A stretch of 64,000 bases of DNA from Methanococcus voltae PS (GTDB lineage Archaea > AGJL01 > Methanococci > Methanococcales > Methanococcaceae). This document shows, piece by piece, positions 27,038-52,157 of the stretch. The position numbers and the translations under genes were made by a program. The notes below the pieces were generated by a model that was given only the letters and a program-made list of their open reading frames with translations, had not been told where the DNA came from and did no database searches. The DNA lies in the NCBI RefSeq assembly GCF_024807035.1, contig NZ_JANUCQ010000001.1, forward strand, positions 371,990 through 435,989. Reading direction: 5' to 3'. Numbering within the stretch: the stretch's first letter is position 1; the number at the start of each line of letters is the position of its first letter.

Positions 27038-27613
27038 TTAATCTATTCTATAGCGATTTTCATTAACTTTCGCATTTTTATAAGTTTGATAGATATGATT
27101 CATCATAAAAAATGCAATCCCCAAAAGTATTAATCCAATTATTAAATTTGCAGGGTCGTGATGTATCATAGTTTCTGTAACAGGCATGGCTTTTTCAGCC
27201 ATTAAGAGGTTGGCAGAATTTTCAACTGCCTCGTAAGACCCCGCCGTAGTCCTTGCCATCATTGGTGATACAATACTACCTTTTCCGTATATAAATAAGC
27301 TGTAAAACCCACTTACGAAGGCTACGACAGATAATGGGAACAATACGATAGTTTTTTCAAACTGGCTATTCAATATGAGTTTACCTTTACTAGTCATTCC
27401 ATAGTATATCCATTTATGTCCATCATCGTGCTTTTCAACAAGTCCTCCATCAAGCATAATGGATAAATGTTCGTGAACAGTAGATTTAGATAAATTAAGA
27501 GTTTTGGACAATTCTGTAACCGTATATCTTTTTTGATTTAATTTTTTCAATATTTTAATTCTCGAACGGGCAGAAAGGGCTTTTATAACTTTTTTATCGA
27601 TTTCAATTTGCAT
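27038..27613 (-). CDS. Membrane-anchored ArsR-like winged-helix regulator
   Basis: This is a predicted transcription regulator. ATG 27613 is chosen because AAGGGAT lies upstream; an ATG at 27631 has no site. Residues about 8-75 form a winged helix (LSARSRIKILKKLNQKRYTV, LSKTLNLSKSTVHEHLSIM, GLVEKHDDGHKWIYYG). Two hydrophobic segments follow, about 90-108 (LFPLSVVAFVSGFYSLFIY) and 158-175 (LIIGLILLGIAFFMMNHIY), so the protein is probably anchored in the membrane. It is divergent from the aldehyde ferredoxin oxidoreductase homologue, with a 225-bp shared region, so it may control that gene. The signal it senses is unknown. Confidence 0.8.
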   Translation of the reverse strand: MQIEIDKKVIKALSARSRIKILKKLNQKRYTVTELSKTLNLSKSTVHEHLSIMLDGGLVEKHDDGHKWIYYGMTSKGKLILNSQFEKTIVLFPLSVVAFVSGFYSLFIYGKGSIVSPMMARTTAGSYEAVENSANLLMAEKAMPVTETMIHHDPANLIIGLILLGIAFFMMNHIYQTYKNAKVNENRYRID

Positions 27614-27838
27614 AATATCCCTTATATTCAATTTTCAATATTCTTAATTTTAATATAATCTTGTAATTTAAATTATTTTGTTTGTTACTATTTAAAATAC
27701 TTTTAAAATTGTTCGGTTAAATTGAATGTATTATTAAGATATATAATTATACTACGTATTCTATATTATATCTTATATATTATATGTCATATGCTGAAAT
27801 CATAGAAAAATAATGGAAAACAAATAAACGGGGATACA
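27614..27838. promoter_or_regulatory. Divergent promoter region between the regulator and the AOR-like gene
   Basis: 225 bp of A/T-rich DNA contains TATA-like stretches on both strands (for example near 27740-27785). A strong GGGGAT ribosome binding site precedes the AOR-like ATG at 27839. I could not define a clear operator palindrome. Confidence 0.4.
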
Positions 27839-29959
27839 ATGAGAAATATTCTAATCGATGCGTCATCAAAAACCTACGAAACAGTAGAGGGCACATATTT
27901 GCCATTAGATTGGGGTATGAAACTCCATAATGATTATGAAACTTATAAAGAAGACGTATACAGTGATAAAAATATATTTTGTTTTGGAAAGGGTGTATTA
28001 CCGATTATTGGAGGTCATAGGTTAATATTTTCCTTTAGGTCACCATTGTGGAAAGGCTTTCATTTTTCAGCAATGGGGGGAGCCGGATATACCCTTCAAA
28101 ATACTGGATTGGACAACATCGCGATTAAAGGAAGATGTGAAAAACCAAGTCTAATAATTTTAAATGGAAACGGTAATTTTAGCTTAGAATTTAAGGAACT
28201 TGAGGAATTTGAACAAGGAAAGTTTAAAAGTGTTTATGAATTAAACGATTATTTAATAGAGCAATATAAACAGATTGACGAGAATTTTAGAGCCTTTATG
28301 GTGGGACCAAGTGCGATAACTACAGATATGGCAGGGATATATTCTCAAACCATAAAAAATGGTGCAGTTGTAGAGGGTTCCGAAGACTGGGCTGCACGAG
28401 GTGGTTGCGGTTCAGCACTCTATAGGTGCCACAATGTCATAGGTGTCGTATTTTTCGGAGATAACTATCAAAAAGACATCGAAAAAGAATTAAAACTTAA
28501 AAAAATAGTAGAAACATGTCACAACAAGCCTTATATCGAGGCAGTACTTTCTAATACTGAAAAATATCGATACAGTAAAAAGACTGAAACAGGCGGGACT
28601 TTTGGGAATAATTATAAAACAGCAATGGATTTAACACCAATATTCAATTGGAGAACACCATTTATCGAAAAAGATGACCGTTTGTACTTCCACGACAAAA
28701 TTTTAAAGTATTTCGTAGCTCAATTTGATGAAGAATCTATAATACCTAAAAATTGGACAAATTGCGGTGAACCCTGCCCTGTAGCCTGTAAAAAATACCG
28801 AAAAGGAATGCACGTAGATTATGAACCTTACGAAGCAAATGGTCCTTGTTTGGGTATTTTCGATATATATGCGGTTGATAAGGTGGTTCACGCCGTAGAT
28901 AGTTTAGGAATGGATGCAATTGAATTTGGAAACTTATGTGCATGGGTTTTTGAACTTTTAAACGTAGGACTTTTAAAACCTGAAGAAGTAGGTATCAAAA
29001 TGCCTTATTTTGATGTCGAAGATTACGATACTGACGAAAATATCCTAAAATGTTCAAATCACAATGCAGAGCAGGCAATAACTCTTGCAAATTTAATTGT
29101 TTATGGGATAACTGAAAATAAAGAAAATACAAAAGAAATCACAAAAGAATTAATCCAATCAATTCAAAAAAATTTGGAAAATCCAGATTATGAAAAAATT
29201 GAGCAATTAATCTCTTTATTGAGAAAAGACACGAGATATGCGGGAAAAGAATTAAATGAAATTTATAAAGATAGATTACACGAATTAAATACTTCTGATT
29301 GCGATGTAAAAGTTGAAAAGTTCAGAAAATACAAATCAAACTGTATAGAAAGTCAAGAACCATTAAATTTCAATGATTTTGCAGTATATGTCGCATTTGG
29401 ACACAATGGGCAAATATCTCCAACTATGTATTGGGCAATAGGTAACTACATCCCTTACTTAATCCAGGGAAAATACCTCACGTATTATCAAAATGGAGTA
29501 TTTTTAGAGCCTGAAGAATTGGCCACCTTAAGTGTTAAAGGTGCAACTGAAGAAATAACTCTTGAAAACTTAGGCATCTGTCGATTTCATAGAAAATGGA
29601 TATTGCCAGTTTTAGATGAATTATTGGCAGAAGTCTTTAAAGATGAAGAAAAAATGGATATTAGTAAATCTGACGAACTAAATGAGGTTAATGAGGTTAA
29701 TTACTATTTATCAAACAATTTACATAAAGTTAGTTTAAACTTACTTGAAAAAATCTACAGTTACGATTTAAAAGTAGGTTATCCTCACGTCATAGAAAGC
29801 CACAGGGTAAAAGAATTAATGGCTTGTGGTGCAAAAGACTTTGAGAATGAAAAATGGGCTAAAAAATTTGAAGAAGATGGAGATAAAGCTTTAGACGAAT
29901 ATATATCAAGAGTTTTAGCTAAATATAGCGAATTACTTGGTATATCTTGGACGTTATAG
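27839..29959 (+). CDS. Aldehyde:ferredoxin oxidoreductase family protein (tungsten/molybdopterin type)
   Basis: AOR enzymes oxidise aldehydes with ferredoxin using a tungsten-bispyranopterin and a 4Fe-4S cluster. The 706 residues include SAMGGAGYTLQNTGLDNIAIKG (N-terminal domain), GCGSALYRCHNVIGVVFFG, then NCGEPCPVACKK with C309, C313 and C317, and C581 (GICRFHRKW), likely the fourth cluster ligand. The first two cysteines are spaced C-x3-C, one residue more than the usual C-x2-C-x3-C. GPCLGIFDIYAVD and DAIEFGNLCAWVFELL match the family core. The stretch 390-490 is a charged insertion. It is divergent from a membrane-anchored regulator. The substrate is unknown. Confidence 0.8.
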   Translation: MRNILIDASSKTYETVEGTYLPLDWGMKLHNDYETYKEDVYSDKNIFCFGKGVLPIIGGHRLIFSFRSPLWKGFHFSAMGGAGYTLQNTGLDNIAIKGRCEKPSLIILNGNGNFSLEFKELEEFEQGKFKSVYELNDYLIEQYKQIDENFRAFMVGPSAITTDMAGIYSQTIKNGAVVEGSEDWAARGGCGSALYRCHNVIGVVFFGDNYQKDIEKELKLKKIVETCHNKPYIEAVLSNTEKYRYSKKTETGGTFGNNYKTAMDLTPIFNWRTPFIEKDDRLYFHDKILKYFVAQFDEESIIPKNWTNCGEPCPVACKKYRKGMHVDYEPYEANGPCLGIFDIYAVDKVVHAVDSLGMDAIEFGNLCAWVFELLNVGLLKPEEVGIKMPYFDVEDYDTDENILKCSNHNAEQAITLANLIVYGITENKENTKEITKELIQSIQKNLENPDYEKIEQLISLLRKDTRYAGKELNEIYKDRLHELNTSDCDVKVEKFRKYKSNCIESQEPLNFNDFAVYVAFGHNGQISPTMYWAIGNYIPYLIQGKYLTYYQNGVFLEPEELATLSVKGATEEITLENLGICRFHRKWILPVLDELLAEVFKDEEKMDISKSDELNEVNEVNYYLSNNLHKVSLNLLEKIYSYDLKVGYPHVIESHRVKELMACGAKDFENEKWAKKFEEDGDKALDEYISRVLAKYSELLGISWTL

Positions 29960-30348: not shown

Positions 30349-30399
30349 CCCAATAGAAACATAATTCGTTATATGTAGATTACCTCGGAGGTGACCATT

Positions 30400-31635
30400 G
30401 TGGCAGAACCTATAACAATTGCTCCTACAACAAGACATGAGGGGCACGCCAAACTCGTTTTAAATGTGGACGATGACGGAATTGTAACCAAAGCATTTTA
30501 TCCAAATACCACTCCCGTGAGGGGATTTGAAACAATGCTTCAAGGAAAGCCTGCAGCATTTGGACCTATTGCAGTTATGAGAATATGTGGAATATGTCAG
30601 GCTACACACGGTATAGCATCATGTGAAGCTATCGAAAACGCTATCGGTGCGGAAATTCCGCAAGATGGTGCAATATTAAGAGAACTCTTAGGTTTAGGCA
30701 ACAGAATGCATTCACACCCATTACATCATTTGTTAATTGTGGATGATTTGTTAAAACCTGAAGAGGCAGATACTTTAAGAATAGATGGTATCAAATTGAT
30801 TCAGAAAATGAGAAAAGAGGGTCAATTAATCGTAGATATCGTTGGGGGAGAAGGTATCCACCCACCTAACTTAGTAATCGGTGGTATGAGAAATAACATC
30901 ACTGAAAGAGCTAAGTCAAAGTTATACTACGCTTGCAAAGAATACCAAGAAGATGCAAGACAAATGTACGACCTTATTAAAATGTTAACTGAAAGATATT
31001 TGGACGAAATCGGAATCCCTGATTTAGGAAGACACGATTTACCATACATTGCAACCGATACAACATTCGGTAACAGAGATAACTTAAAATTAGATGATAT
31101 AGCAGAACTAACCGCTCAAAATTATTATTCTAATTATCCAGAAATCGCTCAAACCGCAACAAACCAAATTCCATTATACTTGGGAACACCTGCAGAGGGT
31201 GGACCAAGAGCAAGAATGGTTAAATTTGGTTCATTCAGAACAGACGGTGGCGTAATGGATGTTAACCTTGCAAGAGCCTTAGAAAACTTAGGCGCTGTTG
31301 AAAGGTCATTACAGTTACTCGAAGAATTAAACATTGAAGGTGCTACCAAAATTACACCAGAATACAAAGACGGATTCGGTGTAGGTGTACACGAAGCTCC
31401 AAGAGCTACAAATACACACATGGCAGAAATGGGCGCAGATGGTAGAATTAAAAACTACAGAATCATCGCAGCTTCAACATGGAACATGCCAGTAGTTGAA
31501 AAGGCTATTGAAGGCTACCACCACAAATATGCGGAAGTAATCATGAGAGCATACGACATATGAGCTTCATGTGCAACGCACATCATTGTGAAAGATGAAC
31601 AGACTAAAAAAGTAGTAGATTTAAGAAGATTTTAA
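30400..31635 (+). CDS. fruA: F420-reducing hydrogenase alpha subunit, selenocysteine-containing (FruA)
   Basis: This [NiFe] catalytic subunit oxidises hydrogen and passes electrons to F420 with FruG and FruB. GTG 30400 is chosen because GGAGGTGA lies five bases upstream; GTG 30391 overlaps that site. The 411 residues have the N-terminal nickel ligands in RICGICQATHG (C63, C66). The C-terminal site reads D386-I-U388-A-S-C391-A-T-H394, where TGA 31561-31563 replaces the first cysteine of DPCxxCxxH. Translation continues in frame for 23 more codons to TAA 31633, giving a 17-residue tail after H394 that a maturation protease would remove. An archaeal SECIS follows. First gene of fruADGB. Confidence 0.95.
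31561..31563 (+). other. In-frame TGA decoded as selenocysteine
   Basis: The TGA codon is codon 388 of fruA. It occupies the position of the first nickel-ligand cysteine in the C-terminal DPCxxCxxH motif. The downstream frame keeps C391 and H394, and a SECIS element lies just beyond the real stop codon. Confidence 0.93.
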
Positions 31636-31667
31636 GTATTATAAGGAACCGAAAGGACTTATAATAT
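31636..31667 (+). ncRNA. Archaeal SECIS element in the fruA 3' region
   Basis: The RNA can fold into a hairpin immediately after the fruA stop. The lower stem pairs AUUAUAAG (31638-31645) with CUUAUAAU (31658-31665), eight perfect pairs, extendable by two. An asymmetric internal loop has GAA (31646-31648) on the 5' side and A (31657) on the 3' side. An upper CC/GG stem (31649-31650 with 31655-31656) is closed by a GAAA loop (31651-31654). The GAA/A internal loop is the archaeal SECIS signature, and archaeal SECIS elements are located in the 3' untranslated region. It directs SelB-dependent selenocysteine insertion at codon 388. Confidence 0.92.
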
Positions 31668-31819
31668 AATAAAATTAATTAGATAAACTTTACTATGTGA
31701 TTTATTTATATTAGGCTACTTAAATTAATTTATTAATAAATTAATAAAATTAACATAATTAATTCAACATAACTAATATTACAAATATTATTAATATTAA
31801 TTAATATAGGATGTATATT

Positions 31820-32341
31820 ATGAGCAATGAACAAGAATTTGACTTAACCCCATCATATTTGTTAAAAGAAACTTTGATACTAGCTTGTGGAAATATCCTT
31901 TTTGCTGACGATGGATTTAGTGTTCACGTTATCGAAAAATTACAAGATTTGTTAACTGACGAGGAAAAGGGGCACGTAGCACTTGTAGACGCTGGGGCGG
32001 GGGCACCTCAACAGGTACTTACTTTAATTGACGAAAGTTCTAAAGTTAAGAATATAACTGTTGTAGATGTTATTGATTATGGGCTTGAACCTGGCACTAT
32101 TGAGATACTAACAAAGGAAAACCTTCCTAATCCCGAACACACTAGAGTAGATAGTCATGAGTGGCCATTATCCACCACATTAAACAGGGTTTGCACAGAA
32201 AACGACATAAAATACAAAGTTATTGGTTGTCAAGCAAAATACGTTTCAGAACCTGACGTTGTATTGGAATTGTGCGAAGAAGTGGAAAATGCTGTTGATG
32301 ATGCTGTAAAAATCATATTATCTGATATAAGGGGGAACTAG
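31820..32341 (+). CDS. fruD: F420-reducing hydrogenase maturation protease (FruD/FrhD)
   Basis: This protease probably trims the FruA C-terminal tail after nickel insertion. ATG 31820 is preceded by TAGGATGT; an earlier ATG at 31811 overlaps that site. The 173 residues contain [20 protein letters not shown] (first metal-ligand Asp), [11 protein letters not shown] (second), [16 protein letters not shown], and [14 protein letters not shown] with the conserved His. It lies 184 bp after the fruA stop codon, with the SECIS in the gap. Gene order A-D-G-B is the standard frh/fru order. Confidence 0.92.
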
Positions 32342-32658
32342 ATACATCCATACTTAATTAAAAATAAGTAAAATAATGGGAATTGGATTATTATAATTAA
32401 TCAATAATTGATTACTATTGATTGAAAATAATAATATATTTATGGATTTTTAATCATTTATGTGACTAATTGATTTAAAATTTAAGAATAAGATGATATT
32501 GACATTAATTATCATATTTATTCTAATAATATTCTAATAATATTGTATTACAATTAAATTTAGTATTATTAACTTGCTAAATTCACCGTTTATTAAAAAT
32601 TAAGACCAAATTGTTATCTGTCTTAATAACTTATCAAAATGATGAGGGAGGAAATACA
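32342..32658. other. 317-bp spacer within the fru operon
   Basis: A long A/T-rich gap between fruD and fruG with no ORF or recognised RNA. It has several TATA-like sequences (for example near 32432-32442), so an internal promoter is possible. The last bases are a GAGGGAGGAA ribosome binding site for fruG. Confidence 0.5.
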
Positions 32659-33345
32659 ATGGTTAAAGTTGCCCACGTACAATTAAGCAGTTGCTGTGGA
32701 TGCTTAGTATCTCTTACCGACACCTACGAGAAGTTATTGGATGTATTAGGAGCTATTGACTTAGTATATTCACAAACTTTAGCAGATGTTAGGGAAGTAC
32801 CTGACGATGTAGATATCATCTTATTAGAAGGTAGCGTATGCTTAAGCGACCATCACGCATTAGAAACTGCACTCGCTTGTAGAGAAAAAGCTAAAATACT
32901 TGTGGCATTAGGCGCATGTGCTGCAAGTGGAAACATTACAAGATTTTCAAGAGGAGGACAAATGTCAAAACCAGTACATGACGCATTTGCTCCGTTAACT
33001 GAAGTTGTAAAATGTGACCTCGCAATACCAGGATGTCCACCATCCCCTGAGTCAATAGTGGCTGTTATAACCGCTGCACTCGAAGGAGATATGGATTACT
33101 TAGAACCATACGCGGAACTCGCTAAATATGGTAGTGAAGCTTGCGGATGCGATTTAATCGTTAAAGTAATTAACAAATCATTATGTATGGGATGTGGAGC
33201 TTGTGCAGCAGCTTGCCCAACAAGAGCTGTAACAATGGAGTGCGGAAGGCCTGCAATTGACAAAGAAATTTGTATAAAATGCGGTGCTTGTAGCGTACAG
33301 TGTCCAAGAATAAGATTCCCTGAATTAATTGAAAAAATAGAGTAA
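32659..33345 (+). CDS. fruG: F420-reducing hydrogenase gamma (small) subunit
   Basis: This electron-transfer subunit links the [NiFe] site in FruA to FruB. ATG 32659 has GGGAGG upstream; an earlier TTG/ATG extension at 32611 has no site. The 228 residues have the proximal cluster motif in [11 protein letters not shown] (C12, C13, C15), [17 protein letters not shown] and [10 protein letters not shown], which is typical of small hydrogenase subunits. The C-terminal part carries two 4Fe-4S motifs, [12 protein letters not shown] and [12 protein letters not shown]. No twin-arginine signal is present, so the complex is cytoplasmic. Confidence 0.94.
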
Positions 33346-33458: not shown

Positions 33459-34307
33459 ATGGACCCATTCGGCTCATACAAGTTTGCTATATCCGCAAGA
33501 GCTACTAATAACCAAATCCGTAAAAAATCACAAGACGGTGGTATTGTATCAGCAGCTTACATACACGGTTTAGAAAGTGGATTACTTGATGGGGTAATTG
33601 TTGCAGATAAAGGTGAGGATTTCTGCGCAATACCTAAGGTTGCTACAACTGTTGACGAAGTTTTAAGTGCAGCAGGTACAAAATATACAACTTCACCAAA
33701 CTTATCAGTATTAAAAAGTGCTGTAAGAGAATACGGTTGCGATAAGGTGGGATTCGTAGGTACTCCTTGTCAGGTGCAATCAATCAGAAAAATGTTAAAG
33801 TACCCTGTAGGTTACAGACACGTACCTGACAAAATTGCTTTAATAATGGGTATCTTCTGTATGGAGAACTTCCCATACAACGGTTTAAAAACCATAATTG
33901 AAGAACACTGCGGAATCAAAATGGAAGATGTCGCAAAAACCGATATCGGAAAAGGTAAATTCTGGGTATACTCAAAATGGGGCGATGTAAAAACTATCAA
34001 GTTAAAAGACACGCACCCATACGAGCAACACTCATGCCACGTATGTATGGACTACACCGCAGAACTTGCAGATATCTCAACAGGTTCAGTTGGTAGCCCA
34101 GACGGTTGGAGCACCATATTCATAAGAACCGCAAAAGGTGAAGCATTCTATAAAGCTATGGAAGAAGCTGGCGTTATAGAAATAAAGAATATCGACGATG
34201 TGAAACCAGGATTAGGATTAGTTGAAAAATTGGCTAACTCTAAAAAGGACAACAACGGTAAGGAAAGAGCACATAGAAAAGAAATAGGATTACCATTGCC
34301 TTACTAA
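33459..34307 (+). CDS. fruB: F420-reducing hydrogenase beta subunit (F420-binding)
   Basis: This subunit binds FAD and a 4Fe-4S cluster and reduces F420. The 282 residues include [65 protein letters not shown] and [15 protein letters not shown], all typical of the FrhB family. GGTGAT precedes the ATG. It follows fruG by 113 bp and ends the operon. Confidence 0.95.
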
Positions 34308-52030: not shown

Positions 52031-52157
52031 TTTAATATGTTAAATTAAAACAATTTATTTAACTTTTAAAATTAATTAGTCATATACAATATTTACTTTT
52101 CAATTGCATTATAAATGAATTAATTCATCTCTTGGACAATCGCAATGAGGTGAAAAC

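Follow-up and report, generated by a model that had tools for sequence, protein, structure and literature searches.

A predicted selenocysteine codon and SECIS element in fruA of Methanococcus voltae PS, and candidate SECIS hairpins within the coding sequences of other UGA-containing genes

The window analysed here (a stretch of 64,000 nucleotides from Methanococcus voltae PS) carries an intact fruADGB operon. All of its genes lie on the forward strand, and the partners of fruA each exceed the cut-off of the corresponding FrhD, FrhG or FrhB family. The features are:

30400..31635, + strand: fruA, large subunit of the F420-reducing [NiFeSe] hydrogenase (frame read via the TGA, NCBIfam frhA, alignment to solved F420-reducing hydrogenases)
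31561..31563, + strand: TGA, codon 388, predicted selenocysteine (Sec), at the proximal nickel ligand position of the C-terminal UxxCxxH (alignments)
31633..31635, + strand: TAA, actual stop codon of fruA (frame read through the TGA)
31636..31667, + strand: SECIS element (fold, enumeration, covariation, and best genome match of a SECIS model that includes the window sequence)
31811..32341, + strand: fruD, hydrogenase maturation protease (NCBIfam frhD, 184.6 bits, cut-off 134.95)
32611..33345, + strand: open reading frame of fruG, small subunit (NCBIfam FrhG, 359.8 bits, cut-off 245.5, match from residue 18)
33459..34307, + strand: fruB, F420-binding subunit (NCBIfam frhB, 445 bits, cut-off 331.5)

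The start codon of fruG is probably the ATG at 32659. Upstream of fruA (27839-29959) lies a relative of aldehyde ferredoxin oxidoreductase that is GAPOR-like but scores below the cut-off, and beside it, on the opposite strand, an ArsR-type helix-turn-helix protein (27038-27631). The RadA protein of the genome is identical at 321 of 322 residues to 1t4g, which we take to be the RadA of M. voltae, and the window thus belongs very probably to that species or else to one very close to it.

Read through its single UGA, fruA has 411 codons, from the GTG at 30400 (behind GGAGGTGA) to the TAA at 31633-31635. The product belongs to the FrhA family (NCBIfam TIGR03295, 590.4 bits against a cut-off of 392.5, residues 2-408). 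After the TGA the frame continues as UASCATHIIVKDEQTKKVVDLRRF, containing U388, C391 and H394, and then reaches the TAA, as the initial annotation had read it. That annotation had also placed the TGA at the position of the C-terminal nickel-ligand cysteine, and two alignments agree: U388 falls opposite the first cysteine of DPCISCATH in 9r51, a solved F420-reducing hydrogenase, and, in the comparison with FrcA that had been proposed, opposite the first cysteine of DPCVSCATH. FrcA is a Cys paralogue encoded elsewhere in the same genome. The UGA is thus at the first ligand of a C-terminal CxxCxxH motif. Of the motif originally given, DPCxxCxxH, the ligand spacing holds and the DP does not, since the window protein reads DIUxxCxxH; DP is present instead in FrcA and VhuU. 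If the UGA were not decoded, FruA would have 387 residues, the length previously stated, counting from GTG 30400; an alternative in-frame GTG at 30391 gives a longer protein, with 390 residues ahead of the TGA.

The hairpin behind fruA begins on the first base past the TAA. It consists of a 10-bp basal stem (nine Watson-Crick pairs and a terminal G-U), a kink-turn-like GAA/A internal loop (GAA at 31646-31648 opposite A31657), a CC/GG apical clamp and a GAAA loop. The earlier description of the GAA/A loop, the CC/GG stem and the GAAA loop was accurate, while its 8-bp stem proved to be one of 10 bp. From the UGA to the GAA is 85 nt. The minimum free energy of 31630-31670 is -9.6 kcal/mol, a value that none of 200 dinucleotide shuffles reached (z -4.4), and when hairpins with a [GA]AA/A loop were enumerated across the 128 kb that the two strands of the window make up, this one, at -9.6 kcal/mol, was the only one at or below -4. 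A covariance model that includes the window sequence, and is therefore partly circular, ranks the element first in the whole genome.

The library check suggested at the outset turned out to be uninformative, because Rfam has no matching family: no family reached its gathering score in the scan, and the matches at E values up to 10 are due to chance. With the M. voltae clade left out, a covariance model (recovery by which is a criterion of our own making, not a published one) failed to recover the window element at E <= 1: mostly G+C-rich elements shape that model, and the A+U content of this one is too high for it. The SECIS elements behind fruA in the clade of the window are A+U-rich in general. 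Judged by its sequence, the window element is a diverged member of its class, given its A+U-rich basal stem, the clamp by the loop with one G-C pair followed by A-U rather than the two or three G-C pairs of typical archaeal elements, and a stem that is continuous over 10 bp, without the internal mismatch found in most relatives. Despite the miss by the model, the motif that defines SECIS function, a GAA/A loop between a basal helix and a G-C apical clamp, is present.

Both the codon and the hairpin are conserved across the order. A search of 41 genomes with FruA gave matches in 36, and all 35 full-length matches of the order have an in-frame TGA. At the 30 fruA loci examined, the TGA is always at the same codon, a SECIS-like hairpin always follows the stop (UGA-to-loop distance 85-108 nt), and the codons 3' of the TGA are conserved. 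The two nearest genomes, with 95% identity in FruA, both have the in-frame TGA. Among 20 distinct elements, 10 of the 13 pairs have changed on both sides, that is, by compensatory change; covariation is 0.402 against 0.163 +/- 0.02 in shuffled alignments (0/500 as high), and at most 0.18 in slid versions. In one relative (G008), AAA/A replaces GAA/A. Three FruA matches with TGA are irregular: one has an additional in-frame TAA (G034:C7:25814-27010), and in two the alignment stops short of the C-terminus of the query (G025:C1:465262-466434, G031:C1:341678-342859).

The genome contains genes of the archaeal Sec-decoding trait, among them the selB, selD and tRNA-Sec genes for which a search had been recommended. 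The tRNA-Sec scores 59.3 bits (Rfam cut-off 47) and folds with UCA in the anticodon loop, and there are matches to SepSecS (524 bits), SelB (382 bits, 522 aa) and SelD (216 bits), selD having an in-frame UGA of its own. Other genes with UGA are hdrA, vhuD (two UGA), vhuU, fwuB, fdhA1 and fdhA2. In the 3'UTR of selD (L086), +1072 nt from the UGA, a SECIS-like hairpin, AUCC-UAA-CCUUUUGG-A-GGAU, lies inside a longer stem; with UAA/A for GAA/A it differs from the consensus solely at the first, less critical base, and the unconstrained fold of this segment favours a partly different pairing. Within the window, two other candidates were discarded: ORF 101-472, which has an in-frame TGA and is isolated and without a SECIS, and the in-frame TGAs near 52104, which are upstream of a start codon.

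Behind the vhu operon lies fwdB (L082:3629-4936), which has a cysteine codon (TGT) where two sister genomes (G002 and G006) have TGA, and which is followed by a canonical SECIS:

L082:3477-3508, - strand: canonical SECIS behind fwdB (hairpin search)

That this element might serve an unseen UGA gene was considered and dropped, because the UGA in the sister genomes is at that very codon. A pseudo-SECIS in M. voltae is on record, in the title of reference 149 in PMC2933860, and, as far as that title goes, the element behind Cys-fwdB fits it.

The same fwdB codon, TGT here and TGA in sister genomes, lends some plausibility to the idea that the TGA of fruA arose from a Cys codon (TGC or TGT) by a sequencing or assembly error, as a single base separates them. 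Such an error is the least probable of the explanations considered, and vanishingly so: the nearest genomes have the in-frame TGA, as do all full-length fruA matches in the order, with a covarying SECIS behind it, so that the possibility, named at the start as one that would overturn the Sec reading, is ruled out. Hardly more credible is a genuine stop, with FruA a truncated, inactive pseudogene whose work is done by FrcA. An intact Cys paralogue does exist in the genome, but the conservation of codons past the TGA in 30 genomes argues strongly against decay of the gene, as do the intact operon and the covarying hairpin.

The hairpin itself could be taken for a transcription terminator, given its position directly past a stop codon. 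It has no T run on its 3' side, though, fruDGB continue downstream of it, its GAA/A loop is conserved and its pairs covary, and a homologous element acts as a SECIS in vivo (PMC9622424); a terminator in place of a SECIS is accordingly very improbable, about as much so as the pseudogene.

With near certainty, then, fruA of the window is a selenoprotein gene whose UGA at 31561 is read as Sec via the SECIS behind the TAA, and the reading first proposed is supported by the conserved TGA, the covarying hairpin and the Sec machinery of the genome. While the frame, the hairpin, its conservation and the machinery are seen directly, we infer from published work that the codon is decoded in this strain, that selenium ligates the nickel and that the SECIS is linked to SelB. 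In the proposed mechanism, the hairpin just past the TAA would mark UGA 31561 as a Sec codon, SelB would deliver Sec-tRNA-Sec to it, and the first ligand of the nickel in the FruA active site would contain selenium instead of sulfur.

FruA as a selenoprotein, and its SECIS, are already known in the genus Methanococcus: Table 1 of PMC2933860 lists M. voltae FruA as the example of this selenoprotein, and detailed in vivo work on the fruA SECIS of M. maripaludis has shown that it directs Sec insertion (PMC9622424, PMC11881835). The window gene resembles FruA/FrhA of these two species in the enzyme, the fruADGB operon, the position of the UGA and the 3' SECIS, and shows no substantive difference; its UGA stands 75 nt ahead of the 5' base of the stem, against 88 nt in M. 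maripaludis (PMC9622424). The F420-reducing [NiFe] hydrogenase of Methanothermococcus thermolithotrophicus (9r51) is homologous over its whole length and has the same C-terminal ligand motif, with Cys where the window protein has Sec. In its basal stem, GAA opposite A, two apical G-C pairs, 4-nt loop and location in the 3'UTR, the hairpin is like the SECIS of archaeal methanogens. Such elements in the UTR turn UGA into a Sec codon; both adenines in the GAA are required for function, and U-A pairs in place of the basal G-C clamp weaken function without abolishing it (all PMC9622424, PMC11881835).

Four of the other UGA genes, hdrA, fdhA1, fdhA2 and fwuB, have no canonical UTR SECIS within the searched flanks in this genome, and no UTR hairpin with any NAA/A loop at or below -4.5 kcal/mol. 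Kink-turn-like hairpins with a [GA]AA/A loop are found instead inside their coding sequences:

L082:11262 (G000:C1), - strand: hdrA, +108 from the UGA, -9.4 kcal/mol
L084:2913, + strand: fdhA1, +78 from the UGA, -6.3 kcal/mol
L083:2539, + strand: fwuB, +97 from the UGA, -6.8 kcal/mol
L085:4412 and 4319, - strand: fdhA2, +117 (-5.8 kcal/mol) and +210 (-7.1 kcal/mol) from the UGA

The hairpin of fdhA2 at +117 has an 11-nt loop, longer than usual. Synonymous codons were shuffled within each gene and hairpins as good counted within +40 to +250 of the UGA. In 1000 shuffles there were none for fdhA1, hdrA and fdhA2 at +210, and 12 for fwuB; fdhA2 at +117 was matched in 1 of 500. The background of such hairpins in other sequence of the genome is roughly 5 or 6 per 365 kb of strand.

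Comparison with related genomes gives a different picture for each gene. In the case of hdrA, seven other genomes were examined, and all seven carry a SECIS in the 3'UTR (+1476 to +1573) but lack a coding-sequence hairpin close to the UGA, while the three genomes of the voltae clade have the coding-sequence hairpin and no 3'UTR SECIS, the remaining distant hairpin match at their hdrA loci being the vhuD element. For fdhA1, the 5'UTR element is present in the non-voltae genomes except G004, whose UGA-containing copy (L098) has no SECIS that could be found in 5'UTR, 3'UTR or coding sequence. The +117 hairpin of fdhA2 is present in all 7 Methanococcus genomes in which fdhA2 was read, and in 3 of the 7 GCA/TGC is swapped for GCT/AGC, one coupled change of an apical pair. 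In G004 the fwuB gene (L112) is a Cys (TGT) copy, yet the +97 hairpin is there too. In that copy it is a relic or else follows from the protein sequence, and the fwuB hairpin may reflect the encoded protein.

The evidence points, with a slightly better than even chance, to candidate SECIS elements that have been relocated to positions within the coding sequence, 78-117 nt past the UGA, in genes of M. voltae, and partly of the genus Methanococcus, in which Sec is far from the C-terminus; the search was post hoc, and the voltae clade consists of only three close genomes. These distances are similar to those of the 3'UTR elements of FruA (+85) and VhuU (+88). The coding-sequence hairpins of this genome are possibly new. 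Archaeal SECIS are described as UTR elements in the open literature, subscription literature aside (PMC9499178, PMC11227280, PMC13188914, PMC11881835), and a survey of Asgard archaea was confined to the stretch from 30 nt ahead of each gene end to 600 nt beyond it (PMC11227280), a range in which coding-sequence elements would be missed.

For annotation, the fruA result matters because an automatic procedure would truncate the catalytic subunit and drop its nickel ligands. The coding-sequence hairpins deserve testing. If they are SECIS elements, a bacterium-like position would have been reached with an archaeal SECIS, which would explain why M. voltae fdhA appears without the 5'UTR element of its relatives (PMC11881835), and, if real, they would supply a rule for the distance and allow the effect of position on archaeal SECIS to be tested directly.
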